From positions 1 through 25,353 of the forward strand of contig CAJVPJ010000431.1 in NCBI GenBank assembly GCA_910592205.1: 25,353 nt of DNA, given 5' to 3'. The notes below the pieces were generated by a model. The model saw nothing but the letters and a program-made list of their open reading frames with translations. It was not told the origin of the DNA and ran no database searches. Position 1 is the stretch's first letter; every line of letters begins with the position of its first letter. Origin of the DNA: Paraglomus occultum. Taxonomy: Eukaryota; Glomeromycota; Glomeromycetes; Paraglomerales; Paraglomeraceae. Positions 3,093 to 25,353 of this stretch are shown one piece after another. The position numbers were made by a program, and so were the translations under genes.

Positions 3093-4050
3093 ATGGAAAC
3101 TCCCAATGGGGTATGTGGGATAACCGAGCAATTAGGTTTGTATTACATCGGCTCAGCTGAGGCATGTTACATCAATCCTTGTTAAAACCGATGGGCCGTT
3201 GTCCTATTAATAAAAGTAAACCGAACACACGGTAAAGTACCAATGCTTATTTTAAATAAAATTTTTATTCGTTTGTAGTACAAGACATCTTTTGAATTGG
3301 CACTATCGGACTCTTTCACAACTTCAGTTGCAAAGGATTCAGCGATCGGCCGACTTATGCAAGAATGGACTTGGGCAAAATGTGCTACGAACGACAACGA
3401 TAATACATGTAGAAATGATCCAAGTCAGGTTCACAATGAGTTTGTCAATGCAGGAGGGACAAGCACAGTCTCTTCGCACGATTTAAAGCTGGGTGGATCC
3501 ATGTCAGAAAAACGTTGCCAAAGTCTGATTGAATCGCTCTCATATTAATACTACCACAATGGGGCTAGTCAGGTATTTTCATCATGACAATGCAAGCACC
3601 ACATAAGCCATTAATTAGTAACCGAATGTTTCAAAGTAACCGCATTCTTCAATATAATCCAGATCTTACTCCTTGGGATTCTTTTCTGATTCCTTCAAAT
3701 CCAGAAAACACTGAAGGAAAAAGTTTTAATGTGAAAGTTTGCAAGTAGTCCTTGACGTCATCCCAAAAGCTGGTTATGAGAATCCTCCCAGATCGTCCGC
3801 AATTGCACAGATGTTAATGGAAACTTTTGATTAATTATCAAAACGAAGAATTAAACGACAAAACTTTCAGCAGAAAGAAATGGGATTCCATCTACACAGA
3901 CGACTTAATACGGTGTTAGTGTTGATGATGTCAAATTATTATTGCAGATTTCTCAAACGGGGTTCGCAGAGCTCTAAACCACGCACACACAAGTTGAAAG
4001 TCACAGGGATTAAAAATCGGCCGAGACTCGAAACACGAGCCACCTATTAA
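3093..4050 (+). pseudogene. Frame-disrupted multi-exon gene, family not recognised
   Basis: A chain of protein-like segments on one strand: ATG at 3093 with six codons, a GTATGT donor at 3111, an exon from 3279 (begins YKTSFELALSDSFTTSVAKD), a likely exon from 3573, then segments around 3736-3832 and 3827-3912, a 35-nt GT-AG gap (3913-3947) and a final exon ending TAA at 4048-4050 (...KNRPRLETRATY). The segments at 3584-3748, 3736-3832 and 3827-3912 lie in frames 2, 1 and 2. They are joined near A/T homopolymers (aaaaagtttt about 3719-3727; aaacttttg about 3821-3829), too closely for introns. Base composition is richer in GC than the flanks, as in the real exons nearby. Either a decayed gene or a live gene with assembly indels in homopolymers. 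I do not recognise the product. Confidence 0.42.
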
Positions 4051-4861: not shown

Positions 4862-7800
4862 ATGGCACACACACCGTCGGGAGGAGTGCAGCTTACGGAG
4901 TTCGTCAAAAGACCTGGTCTTGGCCGTGAAGGACGTCCGCTCAAAGTCAGAGCAAATTTTTTCGAGGTGCTCACGCTGCCACAACAGGACTTGCACCACT
5001 ACGACGTAACTATAACGCCGGATGTCCCCCCGGCTTTGAACAGGCGTATATTTCAACAGTTTGAGGATATGTTTCGCGCCGACCTTTCAAATATAAGGAC
5101 CGTGTTTGATGGTACGTTTGCTGATATTTGACCAGTAGTTGTATTATGTAGGTCACGTGTTTCTTATACGAGCGCGACTGATTGTTATCGGTTTGCTCGG
5201 GTGCACCGTTTACTTGATAGCCTGTGACAAGGGAGAGCGCATCTACGTTGTTTGCTGCTCGTGTTTATCGCCTTTTGACTTTTAGCACCCTTTTACTTTA
5301 AGACACGCGTCGAGTTTATTTGACTACATACCCGTCTCTAACTTGTACTCATCGTAGGTCGCAAAAATATCTTTGCGCCGAAACCTCTGCCCTTTGGCGA
5401 CGCGCGAACTTTCGAGGTGAGGCTAAATAACTTATTAACTGTACATTATTTCAATAAAGACAACATATTTAGTTATGCGACGCGTTTGCGTCAAATTTAG
5501 TTAACTTTACCAGAGGACGATGGCATAACGAGCTCAAAGCGTCCGCCGAGGAATTTTGTCCTCAAGATTAAAAAAGCGGGCACCATAAGAATGGAGGTGC
5601 TCCATCGATTCCTCGACAGTAAACAAGGTTTGACGAACGACTGTCTTACTGGTAAGGGTCAACTATCCCCGATGGTATCTATTCCGTGTTATATATTCAT
5701 AGTTTTATCTGATAATTACATTTTTATTTCAGCAATTATGGCACTTGACGTGTTGATTCGGCACAAGCCGTCAATGGAGCATACTACGGTCGGTCGGTCT
5801 TTTTACACGCCGCAGGGCTCCAAGCCCCTATTCGGTGGGGTCGAAGTTTGGCAGGGCTATTATCAGTCCGCGCGTCCTACGCCGCGTATGTACTCTTAGC
5901 TGTTAACCTTTCCTTGGAAGACAATTTTTATAATTTCTGTATTTTACTTTCTTTACTACAGGGAAGATGATGATAAACATCGATTTGAGCGCTACCGCTT
6001 TCTATGAGGGTGGGCAACTCATCCAAATGGTTGCCAAGGTGTTGAATAAGCGGAATGTTGATGAATTACGGAGAGGTTTAAACGATCGTGATCGTGTTAA
6101 GCTGGAGAAAGCGATCAAAAATTTGAAGATATGCGTGACGCATCGAGGCGAGACGACCAAAAAAAGAAGATTCAAAATTATGAAGCTTACACAAACGCCG
6201 GCCAACCATACAAATTTCGATGCGGGCGATCAAGGAGGTACTATGGATGTTGCCACCTATTTTAATAGGCAATATAATACACGTTTGGGTTTTGCGGCGT
6301 TGCCATGCGTAGTCGTGAGAAAGAACGTCTTCCTACCCATGGAAGTATGTGAGGTGATTCCGGTAAGTGATGCTGCTCACTGACCAATGTCTTGCGGATT
6401 CGCAAGTTTCTAATCCGACTATTTATGAAGGGCCAACGACATATTAGGAAACTTAATGACCGCCAAACAGCGGACATGATAAAGTTTACATGTCAACAGC
6501 CGCAAATGCGGGCGAATAAGATTCGACAGGGCTTGGACATACTTAATTATAGGGGCAATGAGTATATGCAACAGTTTGGTATGCGTGTTGCAACGGACAT
6601 GACCGTAGTAAGTATACGTGTTTTTTCTATGGTGCTTCCCTCATCGATATAATCTTCTAACGTTTACTATATTTATTAGGTTGATGCGCGAGTACTTCCG
6701 GTACCCACGCTTAATTATCATGCATCGTCAACTGACGCGTCTTTTGTTCCAAATGGCGGTGTTTGGAATCTTAGGGGCAAACGCGTGGCAACTGGAGCCA
6801 CGCTTGGTTCTTGGGCAGTTATCGCCTTTGATCGGGAAGACGACCTGCGGATGAATACGATCAAGGGCTTCATTCAGGAATTGACGGTGACTTGTTCGGA
6901 TACGGGCATGGTTAGTAAAGCAACATACAACTTAATCGATATTTGTTAGACCATTAAAAAAACTTTTTTTTCTTTTCCTTCAGAATATTATGAACAAAAC
7001 GCCACCCATCATGCACGCCAATCCCCAAGGGGACATTGAGAATGCGCTGAAGCAAGCATGGCTTCGCGCTGGCAATGCCGCTAAGGCACAACCACAACTC
7101 ATATTGTGTATTCTGCCGAATACTGGTGTGCCGCTCTATGCGGAGATTAAGCGAGTGAGCGATACAGTAATCGGTGTTGCAACACAGTGTGTCCAGAAGA
7201 AGCACACTTTGCGTCCGAACAAACAATATTGCGCGAACGTCTGTCTGAAGATAAACGTTAAACTGGGGGGAATGAATTCATTTTTAAAAGCGACCGACAT
7301 CCCGTTTATCTCGGATAGACCGACGATTCTTATGGGTGCTGATGTAACGCATCCCGCGCCTGGTAAGGGATTAATTGATTGTAATACTAAGTAACTGCTG
7401 AAATTCTAATCTGCTGTTGTTGGTGCTGATAGGAGCGTCAAACAACAGTCGACCGTCTATTGCGTCTCTGTGCGCTTCCATGGACGCGAAGGCGTCACGA
7501 TACGCTGCGTCAATCAGGGTCCAAGCGGGTAAGGAGGAAATAATCGTCGATTTGGCTAACATGGCCAAAGAATTATTGAAGACGTTCTACCAAACATGTG
7601 GAAGAAAACCGGAACGTATTCTATTTTATCGCGACGGTGTATCGGAAGGGCAATTTAGCGCCGTATTAAACAGCGAGATAAAAGCCGTAAAGGGTAAGAA
7701 TTCCGATAGTTATATTCATCTCGTGGGGTTAATGGCTTCTGATATATATTGATTTGGTTGGTTTTTTTTTTTTTTAATAAAGCCGCCTGCACGGCGCTCG

Positions 7801-10015: not shown

Positions 10016-12726
10016 CTATTCTAAATCTTTTGCAAGTCCCTTATTGTTTTTGTCCACATTCATCGTCCTTCCTGCTCGGCTGTTCGGTCTATTGAAACCT
10101 GTAATCCCTCCCATCGAGCCCATATCCACAGACGAATGGTTGCTATGATACCCAACACCGCTACCTCCAACAGGTTGTATTGAATTACGCGGCGACGTTG
10201 TTGAAGGAAAGTTATATGCCCTTGGTATGGTTGATGATGAATAAGATGATAGAGATGTCAAATGAGTCATGCTGTCTAACTGCCCAGAATCCGGAGTCTC
10301 ATACTCAATAATATTATCCTCATTATTAACATCGTTCTTCCATACGCCACCGAGCAGTAGGGATGGAGTGGATCGAGCACGGGTCGATGAATATCCTGGA
10401 TTACCATTGTTACTATTACCGCTCATTATATTAATGGTAGTCGAGCTTGCGTTACGGGATTGTAATCCGTTCAGAGATAACAAGCCTGGCGTTGATGCTG
10501 ATAAAACCTCAGCCTCCATAATGCCCTCGTGTGGACTACCCGGAGCAACGCTATCATCGCTCAACCTCTTCTTCGGATATCTAGATTGAAATACATTCTC
10601 GTTCACAGAAGTTTGAGACTCTTGAATACCGCTTCCTGCATCTGTTGGTCGAAGATGGATGTCATCTTCGCCGGATATTCCACTCCCAAACACATGTTCA
10701 GTAGAATCGGCCCCTTTTTTAGAGGAAAATGGTCTAAATTGTGGCTTGAACCGATTAATCCATACTTTCATAACGATATGCATCATCTTTACGGTGTTTA
10801 ATATACGCCAACTAGGAGCAGAGTTAGGAGATGCAAATTGTCCGTCTATAATGCTATAATCGGAATTGTCTCGCCTGCATGGCGATGAGAAGCACGCATG
10901 CAAACATGAAAACATCCTCCTCCTCACATTTCCATTTTTACGGAGATAGAAGAGGACTCCGCTTGTAAACAATACCAGCAGAAATATCAACATCACAAGG
11001 ATCTGACGTTCAGAATGTGGGTCGCGAGGTGGAGTTGGAGGAGTTGGAGATGAAGGTATTGAATGAGATACTTCCATTACCATCATACCTAGTGTCCAGC
11101 TTACTTGTATCTTATTAACATCCTTGACACTCCGGAAGAGTGGGTTATCTTCACCAAAAGCATCTACTTCATTGTCATTAGGAATTCCAATTCCATCATG
11201 CAGAAAGTTCACTAACCATGCAGATTTAAAACATTGCATCTCTAACCGCTGGATATCAATGTCAGGATATTTCTCCAAGATGTCATCCCAATTTAATGAG
11301 CAGTAGTCAGCCGCCTTCTCTTCAAATGCTTCATAATTCCATTCACCTCCTAACTTAAGAACGTCATCAGCAGTATACCAGTATTCAGATATACCGACAA
11401 ACCGGTTTACGGAGAAGTCTATGTTGGGTGCGTGAACTCCGTTAAACAAGCAAGGTGGATCGTTACAAGGTACTGTCTTGTTTAGCAATGGAAACGTTTG
11501 CTCAAGACAATCCCTAAAAGATCCAGTTCCTTGAAAGGCATGATACGGAGGAGGACGAGATGTATCTGTGAGAAGTAAATTTTTCGGTATACAAGGATCC
11601 TTGATTATTGTGATTATCTGTTCACGTGCTGTTCCCGAATTCTTGACCTCTGTATGAGTATTATTATGAGTATTATTATAACTGTTAATTTGCATCTCCA
11701 CATATCTTCGACGGGCCTCGTTAGTTCCAAAGCCCAGAAATGTTGTGACAAACACGTAATAATCTAATTTCTTCTCATCAAGAGTGTAAAGAGTTACATT
11801 TTGCAAATCCTCTCGATGTTTTTGAGCCTCTAACGAATTAGGTTCAAATGCGATTTGTGCACTAGCGCCACCCATATCTAAGAAGCCGAAGGTAGTAATA
11901 TGTTTGTTGGCTCCTGAAAGATCTTGAACGCCACGAGGCGTAGAATGATCAACATTATCGGTAACAAATCCTCCCAATTTATAATTTACGGCAAGCCAGC
12001 CGTATATTCCTTCCATTACACCCGAGATGACTTTGATCTGGTCTCCACATTTGTCCAATCGGAAATGATAATAAGTTCGAATGTAAGCACATGCACTATC
12101 TAAAATTTGCCTTTGCTGTTCATTAGTTAGAAGACGCATTCCTGCTGTAGCGAATAAATATACCGGAGTATCGGCAATCTTATGCTGTGGGATGACTTCA
12201 AGTGCAAAATCCAACAATTGTTTAAGATGATGATCCCCAACATCCATCGGTTTGTCGACAAAAGAAGATATCCCTAAACGACCGAATTGATTGTCGGAAA
12301 GGTCGTTGTTAGTTGTGAAAGTCCATAAGTTTCGAATTAACATAATTCTTACTAAAGTAAAAGAATGGTTTGCTTCATGATTTGGCGTAAGTTCTATATT
12401 ACCAATTCCATTCTTCAAAGTGTCAGTCAACCATTGACTAAACCCTCTGATAAACTACTATCAATTAACCAAAGCAGAGTAGGAAATTTAAATGGAGCCA
12501 AATGACAAACTCATTTCATACCTGGTTCTACTTTAGACTGCCATTTCTCCCCTAATTCGTCTGCAAGTTCGATGTTCGGAAGAACATGAAGAGATTTGTC
12601 GTTCTGTTCGCGCACAAATCTATGGTCTTTCCAAGAGTATATTTGTATTCTAGAACCAGAGCTGCCTGCGTCTATGACAGCGCCGTAGTTTCTGTTTGAC
12701 TTCCAAGAACTTCCAACAGCAGGCAT
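10016..12726 (-). CDS. YND1: Golgi-type apyrase / nucleoside diphosphatase (GDA1-CD39 family, Ynd1-like)
   Basis: Hydrolyses NDPs and NTPs in the Golgi lumen, supporting exchange of nucleotide sugars during glycosylation. Two exons, 12726-12522 and 12444-10016, with a 77-nt intron; 877 aa. The acceptor is the second AG of cagag, which joins VEPG to FSQW in frame. Apyrase conserved regions: ACR1 VIDAGSSGSRIQIYSW (17-32), ACR2 YLFATAGMRLL (164-174), ACR3 GVMEGIYGWLAVNY with catalytic Glu 213, ACR4 GFLDMGGASAQIAFEP (255-270). Several N-glycosylation sequons (NVT, NNT, NKT) lie in the presumed lumenal part. One membrane segment (ILVMLIFLLVLFTSGVLFYL, about 549-568) is followed by a basic stop-transfer. 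The remaining ~305-residue cytosolic tail is Ser/Asn/Gly-rich and looks longer than the tail of yeast Ynd1. Confidence 0.95.
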
Positions 12727-14225: not shown

Positions 14226-16430
14226 AGCCCGTTTCAAAAATTTTCCGACATTATCACATAAATTGTGCACTTTATTGGTGCAGTAGATTATTCTAATGTG
14301 ACAATCCCAAATCCAAGAACGGGTTATACATTTGTTTATTTGTGTACATTCTTGGAACGCTCAGAGCTGATGATATAATTTTTAGACTTGTGCGGTCTCT
14401 CATGTTCTTGCCTTTTTACTATTCTCTTTTAGATTGCTACTTATCTCGTAGTTGGAATTCCCAAATTTATAAATATTCGATAACTTATATTCTACTAGAT
14501 TGTATGTGTTTAAGCGCGCAAATGCTTAATTTGGGTTACTTAACTGAAAACGGTTTAATTTAATGTATAAGCATTAATCCACTCGTTTGAGCAGTAGCAT
14601 TTTCTAAATATTGAGAAAACAACAAGCTGCTTAGAAGCTATGTTACAATGTAAAAGAATTCGTCGTGTTTATCGTAACACATTGTTGACTGATATGGCTA
14701 ACACTATTTTACTACTACTATTATTTTTTTCAAAATTGATGACTGATGTGTGTATATAAATAAGATTTATCCATAAAATATGATAAAAGTAAACACTATG
14801 CACAATTGCTAATTATGTAGGATATTGGCAGTGTGCGTGTTTGTAATGTGTAAGAGCTGAATATCTAATTATTATATCCAATCATACTTGGTATAAAGTT
14901 ACTTTTTCTTCCAAGTGTCATCCAATGACTCCTTGATGGGGAACAGTTCAGACTAAATAACACATGCCAACGATTGAAATTTTTCACGGGTGGGTAATGG
15001 GGAAATGGTATTGTAAGAAGCATGAGCACTTTAGCGAACAGCGAACTTCGTATGTATCTATTTACTCGACAAGGCCTGCTGACATATTGCTCAATTTATA
15101 AAACTAAAAGCAAATGCAGCAAGTATGCAAGTTTAAAAATTAATAATATGCCTTTCTTATCAGGACAAGTAAATGAAAACTTTCAAATGTGAGGAAATGA
15201 ACCAAATTACCAAAATGTATAAAGATTCATTAATAGCAAGCTAGAAAGTGTTTATAAGATATGTAAAACACACCAAAATACCGTATTTCTCCGACACGTA
15301 CGCCGAATTTTGATTATACTTGATATTCCCCCATATACACAGTAAAATTTACCTTTACGAACACTCACTTGAACGAAGATGGCCAATAACGGATAACAAA
15401 GACTTATATGTAAATTCAGTATAGCGATATAACAAATTCAAAAACCCTTGTATTATACACCCACTTAGGCAAATTTATTTGTATAACGGAGTTCGTCATC
15501 CATCTCAATATTTCAATATATCATCAATAAAAATTTAAAGCTTTCACATCATTGCATCTTCTCAGTTACTTTCTATTGAAGTTGTAAAAGCATTCTCCTG
15601 TTTGTTACATTGTTCCTTCCGCTATACGGTTGCAAGAAGCGAAAGAGGAACATGTGAAGAAACTAGAGAAAAATGAGAAAGAATCTTGATTGACTTTCAG
15701 GAAAGATGGGGAAAAAATTACGGTTTATGCTTATCAACCAGAAATTTTAGACAATTTGATAGCATTAATAAACTCGATATTTTTTTTGGTTGTCCCTTAC
15801 TTCGTGAGGAATTGCTTACGCAAGAAAGTTTTGCAGAAAAAGAATTTACGATTACCTTTAATCTTTGAATAATTTTGCATTGTGTGTATTTTGATCAAAT
15901 TTTTATTGACGAAATTGCGGATTAACAAATTTTCAGATTACCGAAACTGCAGAACGGATGTTGTATTTCTCTTCTGTTAATAAAGACAGATATTGGAAAA
16001 TCAATAAAAATATTGACTAGCGCTCAAAATTAGAATAATACGAAATGGGGTTTTAAAATATTTATGCCAACTTTTCACCGTCAATATTATTAAATTTGGT
16101 TACCACATATTTTTACTCTATCGAACAATTAATAAACAGAGTTACGTTTTGCCCAATCATGATTATGAATTATCTACAGCCAATGACGTAAATCGAGATA
16201 TGTACCCACTATCAATGCATCCTCCCTATACGAGTACTCTGGGTCTAAATGAACAACTTGGCTTAGTGCGTCAGGTTCGGTGGAGATAAATAAACATGTA
16301 TGTAACTTTTAAGTTTATAATGAAATATTAATATCTAAGTATACACGATAACATGACATTATCATTTGGTCCGCCACCCAACGTGTTTAATTTTTTATAC
16401 AATTTTATTTCACCAATATATTGTGTAAAA
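14226..16430. other. AT-rich gene-poor region
   Basis: No convincing gene. Two overlapping 60-codon plus-strand frames at 15686-15872 follow a tttcag acceptor-like site and could be an exon, but I cannot join them to neighbours or name a family. Confidence 0.3.
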
Positions 16431-16500
16431 AAGTACAAGAAAAAATAAAAAGAAAGAAAAAGAAAAAAAGATAATAAATGAGAAAGGTATAAACAGAAAT
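16431..16500 (+). repeat. Polypurine (A/G) low-complexity tract
   Basis: About 70 nt composed nearly only of A and G, with short T interruptions. It generates spurious Phe-rich minus-strand open frames. A similar tract occurs at 16997-17062. Confidence 0.6.
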
Positions 16501-16996
16501 AATATGACAAAAATGTAAAAAATAAAGACAACCGTACTGAGAATGCGAGGCACTATTACACCTACACCTAATTCTTCAAAAGAAAAAAAAAACAATTTTA
16601 AATTTAAATGCTAATAAATTCCAATAATGTCCATATTATGCTACTGTAATTTTAAATGCCTATAAAATTTTGGCCAACCATAATATCTGTCTCACAACGA
16701 ACCATCACCTGAATCGAATTATATGTCATCGTAAAGATAAAAAAAATAAACATAAATAAGTTTTTAAAGAAAACAACATAATAATAATCTTAGTTAAAAT
16801 AAATATTGTAAGAAAATTATGTCTGTAAAATCTTAAAAATTTAAAGCATATATAATGTGTATGTAGCGTCTTGGTATTTTGTATATAATAAAATCATTGT
16901 GAGACAACCACTAAGTAAACAACAGACATTTCCCTTGAATGTACATAACCACTCGGATAGACCTCGACTTCTCAAATTCGAGAATATTAACAAATA

Positions 16997-17062
16997 CAGG
17001 AAAAAAAGAAAAAAAAAAGGAGAAAAAAAAATAAGAAAAAAGAATAACAAATAAGAAAAATA
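16997..17062 (+). repeat. Second polypurine tract, 3' of Myb micro-gene A
   Basis: A/G-rich low-complexity run immediately downstream (on the minus strand) of the stop of micro-gene A. On that strand it is a poly-pyrimidine stretch and may lie in the 3' UTR or terminator region. Confidence 0.55.
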
Positions 17063-17092
17063 GCAACCAAAGATTTGATAAATATGTTGCAA

Positions 17093-17402
17093 TTAGACCA
17101 GCTGCGCAACTCTAAATAAAATAATTGTAGTTCATGTAAGCGCAATTGTAATTACGTTATAAAAAGTAATTAGACAGTTCAAAAAGCGAACGTACCTTAA
17201 GCAGCATTCCCGAGGGGAACGCGTTTTTAATTTCTTTGATATTAGAAGCCATTCATTTTGATATATTACATAGTAATACAGTAAGTAATAATCTTCCTAA
17301 TAGGATTAAAAAAAAAGTTGCAATCTGTGAGCGAGAAATGTTGGAAGTTTTGATAATGGGTAAAATATACGTGCATACTTGTTTAGACCAATTTGGACGC
17401 AT
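17093..17402 (-). CDS. Single-Myb/SANT-repeat micro-gene A (47 aa)
   Basis: Predicted tiny DNA-binding protein that is essentially one Myb/SANT repeat. Three exons: 17402-17379 (24 nt), 17296-17196 (101 nt), 17111-17093 (19 nt). Introns are 82 and 84 nt, GTATGC...TTAG and GTACGT...TTTAG. Core residues have Myb spacing: W5, W24, then V43 at the third aromatic position. Helix 2 is WLLISKKL and the helix-3 turn is KTRSPRECCLR. Exon lengths 1 and 2 and both intron phases (0 and 2) are identical in paralogs B (19394-19103) and C (21245-21560), which is strong evidence that this is a real gene family and not chance. There is no activation domain or other sequence beyond the repeat. The third Trp is replaced by Val. 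Function unknown; competition with full-length Myb factors is one possibility. Confidence 0.72.
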
Positions 17403-17434
17403 CACGATCTGATTAATAAAATTTCGTTTGTCAA

Positions 17435-17461
17435 AGTAAAAATTTGAGTAAAAATTTGAGT
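17435..17461. repeat. 12-bp tandem duplication
   Basis: The unit agtaaaaatttg is present twice in a row plus three bases. It lies in the presumed 5' leader of micro-gene A. Confidence 0.6.
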
Positions 17462-17527
17462 ATTAATTTTGTTTATATCAGACTTTTGCTTAGCTGATGA
17501 GATTTCTCTACGTCTTTCCGGCTTGCC

Positions 17528-17675
17528 TTTAAATATCTTCTCAGCGCATTCTTCCCGCGCTTTTCCGCCAACAGTAGTTTAGGTCAACATGTTACTATTG
17601 TTCCGATACTTAATTTTAAAATAATTGTATTACTCGTTAAATGCAGTTAAAGTTTTTCACCAGCATTTTCCCGCC
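17528..17675 (-). promoter_or_regulatory. Promoter of Myb micro-gene A
   Basis: Reading on the minus strand: GGCGGGAAAA (17675-17666, containing an exact E2F-type core TTTCCCGC on the plus strand), CGGAACAATAGTAACATGTTG-type box (17605-17585), TGGCGGAAAAGCG (17570-17558), then a TATA-like TATTTAAA (17535-17528). The same four modules in the same order, with similar spacing, precede micro-gene C. Confidence 0.6.
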
Positions 17676-17918
17676 ATTATTTTTAGCACTTCCATTGTTT
17701 AGCATAATCAATGTGTCAACAAAAAATTAGTGTTCGGTTACTCTATTGTTATTTTGGCGGTAAAATATGAGGCTTTGTTTACACTTCTATTGAAAGAGAA
17801 CAATAGGATTACAAGTTAAATATACAGTACTGAATTAATTTAATTTGAATACATCAGACCGTATTGTGTGTTTATTTTAGTTACTAATAAATTAACATTA
17901 TTTTTTTATCCGGAACTA
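17676..17918. other. Spacer with further AACAATAG boxes
   Basis: No gene. Contains another reverse AACAATAGAGTAAC-like box near 17736-17749 and a forward AACAATAGGATTAC box near 17799-17812. Confidence 0.35.
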
Positions 17919-18830
17919 TTACAATATGACGCGAAACAAAGCTATATCTTTGTTTGTGGATTACCCCGAAAGTAAAATCGGCCTACTTTTTTTGCATACT
18001 TCTTCCCATTGTCACCGAGACGATATGTCGTACGAGCCACCAATTTGTCCAAACAAATTTCCTTTCTTTGTCGTCATTACGACAGTACACTGCTTGAGAT
18101 ACTCTGAAACCACCAGTTTCTCCTGCATGACTCGGCTTAGTAAAGACAAAATTTAATTAATTCCTTATGCGGTATCTTTGATGTTTGAATGAGGGATTTT
18201 ATGAGTAAAAGATGACCCGAAAGTACGGTTAATATACTATAATAATACTAGAAATAGTAATGTATTGGTCGGTAAATAGCTTGATGATTGGCCGTAAATA
18301 ATCCATTAACTGTCAAAAAAAAATATATATTAAACATATATCTAGTACGTTAATAGTAAAGCTAAATTTTAACTGTATAAGTCCATCACAAAATGTATTA
18401 CATTTACAGTATTCGGCTCTTGAACGTCTCTACAAAGACATTGTTAATCGATAGCTTCCAATAATAGTCATCTTCGACCAAACTATTTACGGGGTATTTA
18501 ATTATCGCACATACATTTGTCTTAGTTAGTTGACGATGCCAAAATTCATGTATTCGGCGAGATCGTGCAATTAGCAAATGTGCGGATGTGTGCGATTGTA
18601 CACCGTGCCTATAGCATTTCATACAGAAATCTCCGAATGTAGACGAGTTTATTATACAGTTTCCGTAATTCATATATGATAATTTGGTCTCACATGCTAT
18701 GATACATATACTCTAACAGTCAGGGTTAATGATGCATGTGCCTCGACATCAGCACTAGGTCGATTCACCCACGAATATTCGTTAGTATAAGATAAAGAAC
18801 CCTTGACTCTATTTGTAATCCAAGCACAAA
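17919..18830 (-). pseudogene. Coding-like fragments of an unrecognised minus-strand gene
   Basis: Several segments richer in GC than the flanks read as protein on the minus strand. One, near 18820-18690, has a run RLCAWITNRVKGS. The open frame 18673-18404 (89 codons) has a Cys/His cluster FCMKCYRHGVQSH. An exon-like segment 18135-18000 (acceptor ...CTAAG, donor GTATGC; 45 residues including CRNDDKERKFVWTNWW) joins in phase across a 58-nt intron to 17941-17919 and a stop. I could not link all pieces into one frame, so a decayed gene is as likely as an unsolved intron structure. No family is assigned. It could be linked to micro-gene B upstream on the same strand, but B has its own stop. Confidence 0.27.
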
Positions 18831-19102
18831 GACGATCTGGCCAATAAAATTAACAAGGAAGCATTGTTCAATAAAAGGAAGTGATTGTCCATGTATGTCT
18901 TTTTATGGAAATAGACCGTTGTTATCGTCATCTCAACTCATGCGCATTGTTCACTTTTTAACAAACATATTTTATTTAGAACATATTCACAGGAAATGAG
19001 AAATACAATGGGAGAATTGCCGCATAATGATTATCATATTCATACAACACTTATTAGCATATATGATTAATATTAATAGCAATAGTCTTGCATGCAGTCG
19101 AT

Positions 19103-19394
19103 TCATCGAAGAAGGCTTCTCAGTCTATACAAAAGACCGAATCACTTAATAAACCGTCAGTATTATTTTCTGTTATAATAATTGTTTCTGTTACCTTTCC
19201 GCACATTCCTTGGGGCTTTTCGTGCCGAGTTCTCTAGCAATAACAATCCATTTTGGTCCGTTATTAAAATACAAGACCAATAACATTCGGCTTTCCTGCA
19301 ATAACGTTGATCAATCGGTAAAAGTCCACTATTCTCAAAATTGATAACAAGTAAGAATGCAATATCTCACGGCGATTGTCCACTGAACTCTCAT
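19103..19394 (-). CDS. Single-Myb/SANT-repeat micro-gene B (48 aa)
   Basis: Paralog of micro-genes A and C with the same three-exon plan: 19394-19371 (24 nt), 19295-19195 (101 nt), 19124-19103 (22 nt). Intron 1 is GTGAGA...TTGCAG (75 nt) and intron 2 is GTAACA...TATAG (70 nt), in phases 0 and 2. W5 and W24 are conserved and L43 stands in for the third Trp. Helix 2 is WIVIARELG; helix 3 is TKSPKECAERLRSLL. Only about half of its residues match A or C, yet gene structure and core are unchanged, which suggests selection on a functional fold. A TATA-like ATATAAATA (19477-19469) lies about 75 nt upstream of the ATG, with a GGGCGGCAAA box just after it. Confidence 0.72.
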
Positions 19395-20449
19395 AGTAAA
19401 CAATTTCAAGTTAAATTCGTTCTGTTTTTGGTATATGACCAATATTAAGTTTGCCGCCCTTTTTTTTCTATTTATATCTGGTCTCAGCCGCAACCTTACA
19501 TCACATGTATATTAACGTAATAAAGTATGGAGACATACATGTTTATTGGACGGATTATATTAATATAAACATACATGCATGGCTCTGTGCTAAAGGATCG
19601 TTGCTACCTTGTCTTCCTCGTCAATAACTATTGCTGCAAATTCGGTTCAATAATGGATTTGTCACACAGTCATATCACGCCATTATGCAAAGCGATAATC
19701 GTAGTACAATGACCGACAATGAAACACGTCAACTGTATAACAAGGCTTTGTCTTTATTCATCTACACCTAATGTTCGACGCTAGTACTACTAAGTATTAG
19801 TGTGGCGACTAGATGGACCGAAAAACTTGAGACACGACTGAGACAAATTACTTCATTTTCGACAAACATAATCGCACAGCATTGATTGCAAATACAGCGT
19901 ACAAAAACCAAACAACATCAACACAAAAAAATGATACCTTTTGTTGCTAAAAATAGGTGTTATCAAATCCAATGTTGTGTAGAGAGTTTTAACTTTTATT
20001 GGTATTATTAATCATATCGTCCCACTGTTGTAAAAGCGTTTTCAGACAATATTAAGAGGGCAAACACCAATAATTATCTCTAACTGTCATTACACACTTT
20101 TCCATTCGTATCAACAAAAGCATTGCACCCCTTTCTCTATGAGTTACATTAGCCAACAAACGCGCAATCATTAACCATAATATACTCCTTAATGTGTTTG
20201 ACACTTCGTGAAGACAGAAGTAGAATTGATTGGTTGTTCTCGAGTTTGTGATAATTCCATCTTGCAAGTCAAGAAGAAATTGATATAATAAATAAGACAT
20301 TTATGAAAAGAGAGTAACTAGAAGAAATTTACCAATTGTTTATTGATTAATGTATTTGCAATAACGGTATCAGTGATTACTATCAAATTGTGGATTGTGA
20401 CTTATTTCTAGCGTTGCAATGAGACAAGTTGTTGTCTTAAAATAAATGA
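19395..20449. other. AT-rich spacer, one weak ORF
   Basis: Starts with the promoter of micro-gene B. The rest has no supported gene apart from the weak minus-strand ORF at 20052-20300. Confidence 0.35.
20052..20300 (-). CDS. Hypothetical 82-codon ORF (weak, distantly Myb-like)
   Basis: ATG at 20300, unspliced frame. A middle segment (ILWLMIARLLANVTHRER) is reminiscent of helices 2-3 of the Myb micro-proteins, but the diagnostic W5 exon is absent and helix 1 has the wrong spacing. It may be a decayed paralog or chance. Confidence 0.2.
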   Translation of the reverse strand: MSYLLYQFLLDLQDGIITNSRTTNQFYFCLHEVSNTLRSILWLMIARLLANVTHRERGAMLLLIRMEKCVMTVRDNYWCLPS

Positions 20450-20919
20450 AGGATTAAAACTATATCTAACCTTGCAGAAATTGCAAAAAATATCAACCGA
20501 CAACAAATATTCGGTAAAAGTTTGTACGATTACGTTATTCCGAACCATAACAGTCTTAGCAACTATAACGATAGTATGGTGACAATTTACACAGAGACCA
20601 AACGCGTTTCATTGCAGAACAATCTTTATTCGCGGTTACTAAGTTTCCGCATTAGGAGTTAATTAAATTTACACTTAGTTTTCTTGCAATTACTGGCAGT
20701 TCCCATGGACGTGCAAGGGATAGTTACCAGTTTCATGCGTTTCATACCATTTGGTTACCTCATAAAATGAAATAAGCATTTTGTTCTAGAACAAATGCAA
20801 GAGCACTGGATACGACTTACGCAATTGTTTATGAGCCGATCACAATGGGAAAAGCCGAGTGCGAGACAAGGATCTCTTTGTTCACGTCAAATCAGAATAA
20901 TATCATTGTTAATTTCTAA
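20450..20919 (+). pseudogene. PAS-like domain fragment, probably a broken gene
   Basis: An open frame from 20450 (acceptor-like cttgcag at 20471-20477) contains IFGKSLYDYVIPNH, the typical PAS-fold G-[KR]-S-x-[YF]-D-[YF]-V-x-P core. A 44-nt GT-AG gap (20635-20678) joins in phase to a second segment with RFLAITGSSHGRARDSYQ and FHAFHTIW. The frame then hits TAA at 20773-20775 but stays protein-like on the other side (LDTTYAIVYEPI) to TAA at 20917-20919. One nonsense codon in otherwise coding-like sequence suggests a pseudogene; a small intron around the stop is an alternative. PAS domains sense light, redox or ligands in fungal regulators, but nothing here shows LOV flavin motifs. No upstream exon with a start codon was found. 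Confidence 0.35.
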
Positions 20920-21011
20920 ACTTAGTCAGTGATGCAATCACATTGTTCATATTGTTTCTCTCCCATAACGAATACAAATTAATCTCATTGTTAATTTTGA
21001 AAATAACAATG
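20903..21011. promoter_or_regulatory. Cluster of four AACAATG (HMG-box-type) sites
   Basis: CATTGTT at 20904-20910, 20941-20947 and 20986-20992, and AACAATG at 21005-21011: the SOX/MATA_HMG-type consensus four times in 108 bp. Two of them sit in a 13-bp direct repeat, tcattgttaattt (20903-20915 and 20985-20997). The cluster lies directly upstream of the promoter modules of micro-gene C. Confidence 0.35.
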
Positions 21012-21056
21012 ACAGTATTTTGAGTTTTGTAACAGAAATCTAACTATTACAGTATA

Positions 21057-21181
21057 GGCGGGAAAACTATTACTTCAAACTTAATAATGACAAACGTTGG
21101 TCGAGCTGCCGCGAACAATAGTAACAAGTTGTAAGACAATTCTGGCGGAAGCGTGAAAGTACAGACTTTACATCTATTTAA
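21057..21181 (+). promoter_or_regulatory. Promoter of Myb micro-gene C
   Basis: GGCGGGAAAA (21057-21066; E2F-like), CGAACAATAGTAACAAGTTG (21112-21131), TGGCGGAAGCG (21143-21153) and TATTTAA (21175-21181), followed by the ATG at 21245. It has the same order as the micro-gene A promoter. Spacings (box 2 to 3: 11 versus 14 nt; box 3 to TATA: 21 versus 22 nt) are nearly the same. Confidence 0.6.
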
Positions 21182-21244
21182 GAGCATGGTGGCCAGAACG
21201 AGGAGCTAGCATCAACTCAAAAAAAGAATAAAATCTCAGACAAA

Positions 21245-21560
21245 ATGCAAACACCTTGGCAACCAGAGGTAAATTTAGCTCATAATTTGATCTCGTCCTG
21301 TTTCTAAAGTATTAATTTTGTTTGCCGTAATCTTTAGGAGGATTTCATGCTTCTTAACTTGTTTCACACTGTGGGCGCCAATTGGCCCCTCCTTTCTAAA
21401 GAGCTTAAAACTCGCTCTCCGAGAGAATGTGCAATTAGGCATGCTTTAATTACTATTAAAAACACGCTTTTTTGTAAATTGGCTAATATTGTTGTTACTA
21501 TTACACTAACATATACTTTTCTGTAAATTTAATAGGGTTCAGCAATTGCTGCCTATGTGA
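21245..21560 (+). CDS. Single-Myb/SANT-repeat micro-gene C (49 aa)
   Basis: Plus-strand paralog of A and B. Exons: 21245-21268 (24 nt), 21338-21438 (101 nt), 21536-21560 (25 nt). Intron 1 is GTAAAT...TTTAG (69 nt). Intron 2 (97 nt) would start with GC (AG|GCATGC) exactly where A and B have GT, and contains a CTAAC branch-like motif before ...TTAATAG. W5, W24 and V43 are present, with EED after exon 1, NWPLLSKEL in helix 2, and TRSPRECAIRVQQLLP completing helix 3 in the usual Myb style. If the GC donor is not used, read-through adds 28 codons to a TAA, or a GTAAAT donor at 21474 yields a longer protein; the homologous structure favours the 49-residue form. Function unknown; probably DNA-binding or a Myb competitor. 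Confidence 0.75.
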
Positions 21561-22396
21561 AGAACTATCTCGAGATATTCTGCATCACATCGTTATTCAA
21601 CAAAGTATCAAACACCCCACATTTTTAATTCATGCGCTAATTAATATGCATTTACATTTATTGATAAGTGATTTCTTTATTTATGACGTTAAGATTAATT
21701 TGCGTATTAAGAAATTTTTTATCTTTAAGCTATAACTTCTTTACTTTATTTATATTAAGAGAGCATTGGAACTAATAGTCCAACGATATAGTCAGTATTA
21801 CTGTAAATAGCTTTTTTTATTACAACTTTTTGGTTTTTATTTGGAATGTCTCTGCATGACTGTTGTCGGATTTTGGTCACGAATGCGTCTTCAAGATTTA
21901 CTTATTTGTGTTTCTTATATCTGTTTAATTTATCTATATATCTTGAGCTTTTATATTATTTTTATCATTTTTGTTATATTAACATTATCAATTACAATGA
22001 ATAAACTCGTTTACAATGAATAGACAGCCTCCTATGATTGACCAGCATAATAATTGCTTAGGAATTTGTCTCCGTAAAAATATTTTATAATATTTATTAA
22101 CTTCATACTAATATCTATTTTACAATTGCAACGAAATTCTCTATTGGTTAGGAAAAGCATGCGGTTACTATGTCGCCGTTAATACGATTAATGCGACAAT
22201 TACATTCAGCTTAGAGACGTTTATGGTGTACAATCTTGACTCAAGCAATAACTAGATTGTTGGGATGCTACGCGTAAAAAGCTCGACTTTGATAAGTAAC
22301 TGTTATGTTCATGTACTAATAAAGGTAGCAGCAATAGTAATGCAAGTAGGCTTAGGACTAATATCCACATCAATTACTATTAAATAAAAATTGACA
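21561..22396. other. AT-rich intergenic, no supported gene
   Basis: A 60-codon hydrophobic frame at 21841-22023 is typical of AT-rich non-coding DNA. Nothing else recognised. Confidence 0.4.
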
Positions 22397-22764
22397 GTTA
22401 CCGTATTTCACGGACTAAAGTACCTCTCCACTAGCAAATTGTAAAGTACCATAGTATAAACAATAGTGTTAAGTAATCATGGAATGACCATGATTGTAGT
22501 AGCTGACAACCATAATGTTTCTCTAGCTCACGAGCGAGACTGCTTATATGTAATTAATACGTGCAATTGTGCGCGCAAACATTTAAACACGTATATGTCC
22601 AACATAGCATGTCCAATGAAAAGACTATGTACATGCTTCTGTCATAATATTTTCCCAGTACAATACACCCATTCGATCAAAGCACCATTCGGTGTATAGT
22701 AGCTCATGGTATAACAGAGTTTTGTAAAATACCATTGGTAGTTTAGTCCGTAAAATATGATAAC
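22397..22764. mobile_element. MITE-like element with 27-bp imperfect terminal inverted repeats
   Basis: The left end (22397-22423) begins gttaccgtatttcacggact; the right end (22738-22764) is its reverse complement with 4 mismatches in 27. The element is 368 bp and encodes no transposase; the 77-codon frame inside (22466-22699) has no motif. I could not recognise a target-site duplication, so the exact ends and superfamily are open. Confidence 0.55.
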
Positions 22765-23827
22765 TTGTTCCCATCTAAGCGTTAGTTATTTATAGATTTG
22801 GCCAAGGGACATTGAATTGTATCTTAATTTGGTCCCGTGGAAGTAAACAATACATTGTGTGACATTGCTTATTAAAGATAATTTTGTTAGTACTGGTTAA
22901 AGCGCAGGTTTTCTGGTGCAACTTTAGCGTTTATTATGTCGACGCACAAGGCTAAAGTAACATGCTGTTAAATTAATTCACACACTGTTATTTTTCAGCA
23001 TTTAGTGATCAAACTCCAAGTGTATGTTAAGAAAATAAAAGTATTAATTTAAAAAATATCGTATTTTGCGACTCAACTTTAACATCGCAATTTTATGTAC
23101 TTTATTCAACACCATTAAATAATACACTAAAAATTAAATTAAATAAAATTAATTAGTTGTTTTGCACTTCTGCATGTTAAAATAAATTAGTTTGGTGTTG
23201 AAAAAGGTTTATGCATTTGTTGGCTGCGGGCATCTTTGAACCCGTTTGTTATTCTCTACCTTTTTTTGTTTACCATGCAGAATTATTAAATAAAAAGTCT
23301 AGACGCATTGAGTAAATATTTTAAGAAAACAATATTGTTTAATAATATACAACTTTTCGATTTAACTATTATTTGGGGCATAGTATTATTTGTATCTTCA
23401 AGAGTGCGTATTCAATAATCGAAATATGCTTACGAAAAATTTAATTAGTTTGACGTGTTTGACTCTTTGATTGCAACTGTATCAAAACTTAACCAATGCA
23501 CTCGAGCAGTATTTTATCAAGACTAGAACAATAAAAAACGATCTTTTGTTGACAGTTGCTTGATAAGTGAAGGCCTTTGGGGAAAGCTTTACGTTAAATT
23601 TATTCAAATTTCGTTTCTTTCTTGGCTATTATGAGTTGAGGTTAATGCTCGTTCATTTTTCGTTCTTGATAAGTTCATGAGTGGTTTTTTCTTTATCTAG
23701 ATACTCCTGGAGAGTTTGGGTATCATTGATTTTAAAAACATAGGGCCAATTTTTTCCTTGTTTTGTTTAAGAATGCTTCAAATAGTGCTGTAATTCTTGG
23801 TAAGTTTAATGTAAATTACCGTAAACT
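22765..23827. other. AT-rich intergenic, nothing recognised
   Basis: No open frame with splice support, no clear repeat and no RNA gene seen on either strand. Confidence 0.4.
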
Positions 23828-23878
23828 CTCATGAATAAAGGCCCCTCTTTATCATATAAGGGAGCTCTTATTCATGAG
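23828..23878. repeat. Fold-back hairpin with 11-bp perfect outer stem
   Basis: ctcatgaataa (23828-23838) pairs perfectly with ttattcatgag (23868-23878). The stem continues imperfectly inward (ggcccct against gggagc) around an A/T loop. It could be a terminus-only remnant of a transposon or a structured transcript. A terminator or small-RNA hairpin cannot be told apart from sequence alone. Confidence 0.55.
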
Positions 23879-24193
23879 ATGGGTTGGTTGTGGATTATTT
23901 GCATTGATTTTAAGCCACCAATCGTCACGTAACAGTTGTCCGCGTTTTTTGTTTATTACATAATCACGAGCTGCATACAGTATATCATATGATTTCGAAC
24001 TCGCCTTTCTTATTATAATTCGCATTATTTGTTGTTGTTTATGATTATAGTTAAGCGTTCTCGCTATGATTAATCGTGTAAATGAAAGTAAGATAGTGAA
24101 AATGCTGAAGAGAAGAATGAACCAGCTATAGTTTACCAGAGGACGTTTGTGAAGATGAGGAATGGTAATAAATCAGCATTACTAAATAAAGTA
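23879..24193. other. Spacer between the hairpin and the pogo-like element
   Basis: No feature recognised; AT-rich. Confidence 0.4.
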
Positions 24194-24857
24194 CAGTGAG
24201 ACTCCTCTAAATGCATCTCCTCTAAATGCATAACTCCTCTATATGCATACTTTTGTCTGGTCCCAAGTTCGGACTTATCTGTTATTGCATACACCCTTTA
24301 GATGCATATGCATCGATTTTATAAATCTTTACATAGTATTCTAAATGCATAATCACGTGATATATTATCAGTTTTTTCGGAGGTTCATTTGCTCACCAAC
24401 ATTAGTATTATTATTTCGAAATATTCTTTTAGTTGTCAATGAAATGATATGAACCCAGTATAATAATGCATGTTACAATTAAGTCCAATCCAGTCTGTTT
24501 AATGTAAAAAAAATTTTCTTTATTTAAATGCCTGTTTCCTAAACCATTCACTGATTGCAACTCCTATTTTTCATCTACAACAAAATAATCACCCAAATTT
24601 TTTTGTACTAGTGATTTTACCTTCAATATTTCTAATACACGACCAACCTTCATTATATTGTCAACCTCTTTTGAATATTCACCTTCCTGGCCTAAAAAGA
24701 ATCGCATTTAATTTGTCAAGTGAATATTTATCGGCAAATAAACATCCAATCAATTGTCTTTCCTTCATATCATGCGACTATCCTCCAAATGCATAACCCC
24801 TTGTAATGCATAAAATTTCTACGGTCCCGACAGTATGCATTTAGAGGAGTCTCACTG
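24194..24857. mobile_element. Non-autonomous pogo/Tigger-like (Tc1-mariner) element
   Basis: Perfect 23-bp terminal inverted repeats: the left (24194-24216) starts cagtgagactcctctaaatg and the right (24835-24857) is its exact reverse complement. Both ends are flanked by TA (24192-24193 and 24858-24859), the target duplication of the Tc1-mariner superfamily, and the CAGT end is usual for pogo/Tigger. Homology continues past the repeats (atgcatac...gggacc on both sides), interrupted by two extra copies of the cctctaaatgcat unit on the left. Subterminal tgcat motifs recur inside, as transposase-binding repeats often do. Length is 664 bp with no transposase frame, so it would be mobilised in trans. 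Confidence 0.86.
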
Positions 24858-24859
24858 TA

Positions 24860-25353
24860 TGTAAGAAAATGTGATTATCTGATACCATTTTGTCTTCATT
24901 CGTATTTGGTCATGGGTCGTTCGACTTTTTTTCGCACTTTATGAGATTTCCCAATCGAGTAATCTATTCACAAAAACATACAGAAAGGACGGACTATCGA
25001 TTGAAAAGGATGTGCGTCTTGATTAAGCACTGTTATAGTAATAATAATTTTCAAGTGACAATGGCGCGCATGTAAAACCGCTTCACATCAAGAAGATATA
25101 CGATAAATGCAAATAAGCGATTATTATTATAGTATCGGAATCACTCTAAGGGCAAGACAATGTCACTCAAAGCATAAAATATAACATTTCGAGTATACAT
25201 GACATCATCAATATGGCTTTGACGTAGCATCAGAACAAGGACAGACTTGCACGATGCGTATAAGGGCCAAGTTACCTGCTTTCATACTAAATCCGATTGC
25301 CTATATCCCAGCAATTCTTAATAATGGAGCACCGCTAAAAATAGTCTTAATGG
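24860..25353. other. Right edge, no supported gene
   Basis: A 61-codon plus-strand frame (24890-25075) has no support. On the minus strand a short exon-like stretch with AG and GT borders lies near 25278-25302 but cannot be extended within the window. Confidence 0.3.

Follow-up and report, generated by a model that had tools for sequence, protein, structure and literature searches.

Three predicted one-repeat Myb genes of Paraglomus occultum and their kinship with small two-repeat Myb genes

The window analysed here is a whole stretch of 25,353 nucleotides (nt) from Paraglomus occultum (contig C431 of the genome; CAJVPJ010000431.1 of assembly GCA_910592205.1), in which an earlier note, made from the letters of the DNA, had described three very small spliced loci, each encoding one Myb repeat. 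We propose that these loci are most likely real genes for one-repeat Myb microproteins, which derived from two-repeat Myb genes and probably compete with these, and we give this reading as a whole a probability of about 0.6. Its established part comprises the Myb domain, the exon plan, the absence of repeat 2, the kinship with two-repeat genes, and a counterpart of locus 1 of the same length in the sister species P. brasilianum; we infer that the peptides are translated, act in the nucleus, and compete. Paraglomus occultum, an arbuscular mycorrhizal fungus, has a small genome (PMC9453076), and the main text of that paper does not contain the word Myb. Among the matches listed in literature searched by topic there was no fungal one-repeat Myb microprotein.

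Results

Splicing of the loci and identity of the Myb repeat

Re-splicing of the three loci reproduced the exon positions and lengths given in the earlier note (Table 1) and yielded peptides of 47 to 49 amino acids (aa), with introns in phases 0 and 2 in all three loci alike. The peptides run from MRPNW to AQLV in locus 1, from MRVQW to SLLR in locus 2, and from MQTPW to LLPM in locus 3 and, again as had been claimed, have in common W5, W24, and the motif T-[RK]-S-P-[RK]-E-C; by eye, the tryptophan spacing in the three peptides is Wx18Wx18[VL], with V or L at the position of the third core tryptophan. Intron 2 of locus 3 (21439-21535, 97 nt) is of the GC-AG type, with the donor GCATGC. Retention of intron 2 was considered and rejected; splicing is preferred because read-through meets a stop at once in locus 2 and breaks the frame in locus 3 of P. 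occultum. The statement that no locus has an open reading frame above 60 codons failed narrowly for locus 3, whose stop-to-stop frame is 62 codons.

The curated Pfam cut-off for PF00249 (24.4 bits) was passed by all three spliced peptides, with 28.8, 34.9, and 34.9 bits for loci 1, 2, and 3, respectively, and each likewise passed the cut-off of PF13921, so that the profile match which the earlier note had named as a check was obtained. With a profile built from first repeats elsewhere in the genome (window left out), the three exons 2 scored 30.6, 34.3, and 28.9 bits; the next best match in the window reached 6.9 bits, and the top score in 200 dinucleotide shuffles of positions 14501-25353 was 13.1 (0/200 reached the exon-2 scores). 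A 24-nt exon 1 with a tryptophan four codons before the GT was found upstream of 6 of the 1004 AG acceptors, counted on both strands of 14501-25353 with the real loci included, and all three loci have one. The nearest solved structure was c-Myb (1h88, E = 1.1e-13), the middle repeat of which matched with 26.6 bits vs 12.9 and 13.4 for the others; in the second-best chain, MYB24 (2k9n), the last (second) repeat was the better match (27.2 vs 22.7 bits). The c-Myb match leans toward an R2-type assignment of the window repeats; the MYB24 match, in which the last repeat comes out ahead, keeps this at a leaning. The profile of the two-repeat family described below aligns with c-Myb R2R3, and since the window repeats are first repeats, they would be of the R2 type by this route as well.

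Relation to the two-repeat Myb genes of the genome

In the 32.3-Mb P. occultum genome there were 140 matches to PF00249, 96 of which were examined; the remaining 44 include many repeats of long multi-repeat frames. Many of the examined matches were paired, a few hundred bases apart, and often clustered. The fetched loci supplied 42 first repeats scoring at least 25 bits, from which came 35 exon-2 models and 26 full two-repeat models; four exon-2 models (three of 110 nt and one of 116 nt) have doubtful donors, the full model on C831 is apparently mis-joined at exon 3, and that on C408 is without the start of repeat 2. In the full models exon 1 is short (18-30 nt in 20/26), exon 3 has 26 nt (24/26, a length favoured by the model scoring), and exon 4 carries the second repeat; the intron phases are 0 and 2, and a tryptophan usually stands four codons before the first junction. 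The scoring gave preference to models with a tryptophan close to where exon 1 ends and with about 26 nt in exon 3, and these two features are partly built in. A C-terminal MSIxxLL motif, taken as the pattern M[SAKE][IV]xx[LI], is present in 20 of the 26. The splicing rules are supported because four spliced models were identical letter for letter to public proteins (P0001, P0003, P0004, and P0011). Seven of the 42 first repeats fell off the plan, six of them without an intron-2 donor and one without an acceptor.

Clusters of two-repeat genes, with full models of 101-199 aa, lie on contigs C10, C150, C175, C57, C780, and C1103 (L009-L020); C10 and C150 hold six or more such genes each, and cluster members mostly carry MSIxxLL. 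In a subgroup on C175 and C976 (L012, L013, L031) the intron after repeat 1 is missing, no donor for it having been found. At C150:6504-6869 (L014) the second repeat is degraded, with 20 bits vs 58-67 bits in the other five of that contig, and this is probably a decaying copy; decaying copies thus appear to exist in the two-repeat family and to remain recognisable.

The plan of exons 1 and 2 and the intron phases of the window loci are those of the two-repeat family. The earlier note had taken this plan as the mark of a one-repeat family; instead it marks the two-repeat family, exon 2 being 101 nt in 18 of the 32 exon-2 models outside the window. Two-repeat genes such as P0001 differ from the window loci in having repeat 2 (exon 4) and mostly MSIxxLL, which are found only in the former. 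Of the 42 first repeats, 37 were followed within 900 nt by a second repeat that scored 15 bits or more (37/39 outside the window and 0/3 within it). The other two that lack one lie at the edge of contig C785 and on C327, where the repeat seems to close a gene with several repeats. When the window was searched with protein and DNA profiles for a relic of repeat 2, nothing rose above noise except cross-matches to the repeat-1 exons, and MSIxxLL was absent from the three window peptides by inspection. A stretch near 21603, after locus 3, resembled a repeat-2 exon by eye and was dropped, as its frame was unfit and no profile matched it. The search of the genome with the exon-2 peptides that the earlier note had proposed gave at least 13, 15, and 8 matches, all of them in the window or on contigs with multi-repeat Myb genes, and no further one-repeat locus. 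Among the genome matches listed, the three window loci would be the only one-repeat members of the two-repeat family.

Public annotation and conservation

The claim that annotation misses these loci stood for loci 1 and 2, in so far as protein searches made with each did not return the P. occultum locus, and did not stand for locus 3, which is covered by a mis-spliced public protein of 81 aa (P0123, gene 8006_t, about 21087-21629). That model adds an upstream exon and splices out of exon 2 at a GT that lies within it, with loss of the Myb domain and of any Pfam match; by eye, it takes the promoter region of locus 3 as an intron. Its extra exon is what would be expected if the exons were fragments of larger genes, joined to exons that we did not recognise, with a product that is not a microprotein. 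We hold this to be highly improbable: the 81-aa model matches no Pfam domain and splices inside a conserved exon 2, P0121 of P. brasilianum was annotated at 47 aa with ends identical to those of locus 1, and the profile search found no repeat 2 in the window.

P0121 is identical to locus 1 at 43 of 47 residues (91%), differing at residues 6, 12, 19, and 29 only, and itself matches Pfam Myb; a two-repeat pair compared across these species agrees at 108 of 123 residues, near the value for locus 1. On this comparison locus 1 is conserved in P. brasilianum. P0122, an intronless frame on a metagenome contig, agrees with locus 3 at 29/31 residues of exon 2 and, counting the split arginine, at 8/8 of exon 3, vs 15/31 for the translation of intron 2, and the residue H that follows its junction arginine would fit the GC donor if the arginine codon is AGG. 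Between loci 1 and 3, exon 2 has 17 of 33 residues in common, and the two exons differ at 14 first, 11 second, and 28 third positions of the 33 codons, a pattern that points to constraint on the protein. The existence of loci 1 and 3 as genes is well supported.

Several observations weigh against our conclusion. The model of locus 3 requires a GC donor, unique among the 35 exon-2 models. Locus 2 yielded no homologue when searched alone against proteins, and its codon-position differences, 21/15/19 from locus 1 and 16/14/22 from locus 3, are a weaker sign of constraint. The window exons 2 scored 31.6-34.9 bits vs 45.8-65.5 bits in 18 two-repeat exons, with a profile built largely from those two-repeat exons. 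One-repeat rows were united in 0% of 200 bootstrap trees, and a single one-repeat clade was not rejected (p-AU 0.46); the tree had 32 rows, with 6 of the 35 exon-2 models left out, and 38 columns, which resolve little.

The low exon-2 scores, the GC donor, and the lack of a homologue for locus 2 would also be expected if the loci were decaying relics, that is, pseudogenes of two-repeat genes in which repeat 1 is open by chance, and the two-repeat member with a degraded repeat 2 (C150:6768) indicates that decay happens in this family. In a simulation of neutral decay to the observed divergence (4000 runs), no more than 0.05% of the runs left an exon that was still open and scoring; erasure of repeat 2 with repeat 1 kept had a probability of at most 0.009 per locus under neutral evolution by substitutions only, which makes it improbable in three loci, a deletion of repeat 2 aside. 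Of copies that had drifted neutrally by 0.1 changes per site, 37% still passed, as would suit loci that were long under constraint and became inactive only recently; the tests would miss such an event, and likewise a loss of repeat 2 by deletion. The P. brasilianum counterpart of the same length, with only 4 substitutions in 47 residues, and the conservation of the exon over the intron in P0122 argue against relics, and we regard decay as quite unlikely to be the explanation. Of the fungal family of Myb microproteins that the earlier note had proposed, what we retain are bare single repeats that are spliced, that diverged with their core residues kept, and of which locus 1 is present in the sister species.

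Upstream sequences and other features of the window

In the AT-rich part of the window (14.5-25.35 kb), six of the seven GGCGG/CCGCC words lie no more than 400 base pairs (bp) upstream of the three ATGs (Table 1); several of these sites we take to be E2F-like. A GGCGG within 400 bp upstream was found for 3/3 window loci vs 4 of 27 other models, which include the odd C10:8093 and C785:40 (P = 0.009), and the motif was chosen after the sequence had been seen; the tests are post hoc, a further point against our conclusion, and provide a lead. Domains of the E2F/DP type match three places in the genome. The upstream sites suggest that the three loci may be switched on together through GGCGG/E2F-like promoter elements.

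Table 1. Exons of the three Myb loci and sequence elements upstream of them, in window positions
Feature	Position	Strand	Description
Locus 1, exons	17402-17379, 17296-17196, 17111-17093	minus	24/101/19 nt; 47-aa single Myb repeat
Locus 2, exons	19394-19371, 19295-19195, 19124-19103	minus	24/101/22 nt; 48-aa single Myb repeat
Locus 3, exons	21245-21268, 21338-21438, 21536-21560	plus	24/101/25 nt; 49-aa single Myb repeat
GGCGG/CCGCC sites upstream of locus 1	17565, 17671, 17756 (17565..17760)		two E2F-like: TTTCCCGCC, TTTGGCGG
TATA-like box of locus 1	17526..17536	minus	sequence match only
GGCGG site upstream of locus 2	19454..19458	minus	sequence match
TATA-like box of locus 2	19468..19477	minus	TATAAATAG; sequence match only
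GGCGG sites upstream of locus 3	21057, 21144 (21057..21148)	plus	site at 21057 E2F-like, GGCGGGAAA; sequence match
TATA-like box of locus 3	21176..21183	plus	TATTTAAG; sequence match only

Elsewhere in the window there are a HECT_2 frame (PF09814) at 761-1522 on the plus strand, Piwi domain exons (PF02171) of an Argonaute-type gene at 6990-7749, and a GDA1/CD39 nucleoside phosphatase (PF01150) at 10016-12726 on the minus strand. Four stretches (3653-3722, 16758-16806, 22706-22757, and 23663-23795) are 69-81% identical to sequence on C57 and C147 (L018, L042) and are possibly shared repeats.

Discussion

Like microproteins, each of the three peptides consists of one domain that has larger homologues encoded elsewhere in the genome. 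We propose that the ancestor was a small two-repeat Myb gene, equivalent to c-Myb R2R3, in which the exon for repeat 2 and the MSIxxLL end were lost, so that exon 3 would now close with a stop and the product would be little more than one Myb repeat, closest to repeat 2 of c-Myb. The lone repeat would keep a basic recognition helix, and a basic residue is indeed kept before E-C in the three peptides; its DNA binding is expected to be weak. c-Myb requires both R2 and R3 to bind DNA. Repeat 2 of c-Myb (PDB 1h88, 1mse) is part of a three-repeat protein and keeps the third tryptophan, whereas the window peptides have V or L there; because of this replacement and the loss of the second repeat, strong independent DNA binding is unlikely. 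Most likely, the lone repeat would occupy half-sites or partners of its two-repeat paralogues and so dampen them, much as one-repeat Mybs of plants do with larger Mybs through a different contact.

The same peptides might act on their own account instead, as homodimers or as cooperative binders on repeated half-sites, and not as inhibitors. The R or K that aligns with the lysine in the GKQC stretch of c-Myb repeat 2, which contacts DNA, would suit such a role, as would the single Myb domains that serve telomere binders; Myb proteins that bind telomeres in fungi figure in PMC4839565. With 47-49 residues, however, the peptides have no space beyond the domain itself for a segment to dimerise through, and besides the third core tryptophan, which is replaced, they have lost the N-x-L that most two-repeat members carry after it. 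We therefore consider self-acting proteins unlikely and prefer one-repeat microproteins that compete with two-repeat paralogues.

The earlier note had likened the peptides to the plant proteins CPC and TRY, and of this comparison only the analogy in size survived. The plant R3 MYBs CPC, TRY, and ETC are likewise small, consist largely of one Myb repeat, and are without an activation domain; they are 77-112 aa long, carry a bHLH signature, a WxM motif, and the spacing Mx18Wx18W, and compete for bHLH partners (PMC3986520). The window proteins, in contrast, have 47-49 aa and match c-Myb repeat 2 best, not repeat 3; the bHLH signature [DE]Lx2[RK]x3Lx6Lx3R had no match in any of the three peptides, and by eye both the WxM movement motif and Mx18Wx18W were absent, on which grounds membership of the CPC/TRY group was rejected. 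Because the plant bHLH contact signature is absent, any competition would have to run through a different contact, for which half-sites in common are the simplest candidate. That the R2-type trio is an independently evolved fungal counterpart of CPC/TRY, co-regulated under E2F-like cell-cycle control and damping an expanded set of bare two-repeat Mybs, is a tentative possibility.

A GC-AG intron together with very short exons, as in locus 3, can mislead annotation into destroying a conserved domain. If the loci are real and expressed, they would provide Myb proteins with hardly anything beyond a single repeat, and a two-repeat Myb would be reducible to one repeat in fungi too, apparently with retention of a repeat different from that kept in plants. 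Arbuscular mycorrhizal fungi are hard to manipulate, and natural small inhibitors of the fungus's own regulators, if that is what these peptides are, would be useful handles on such an organism.

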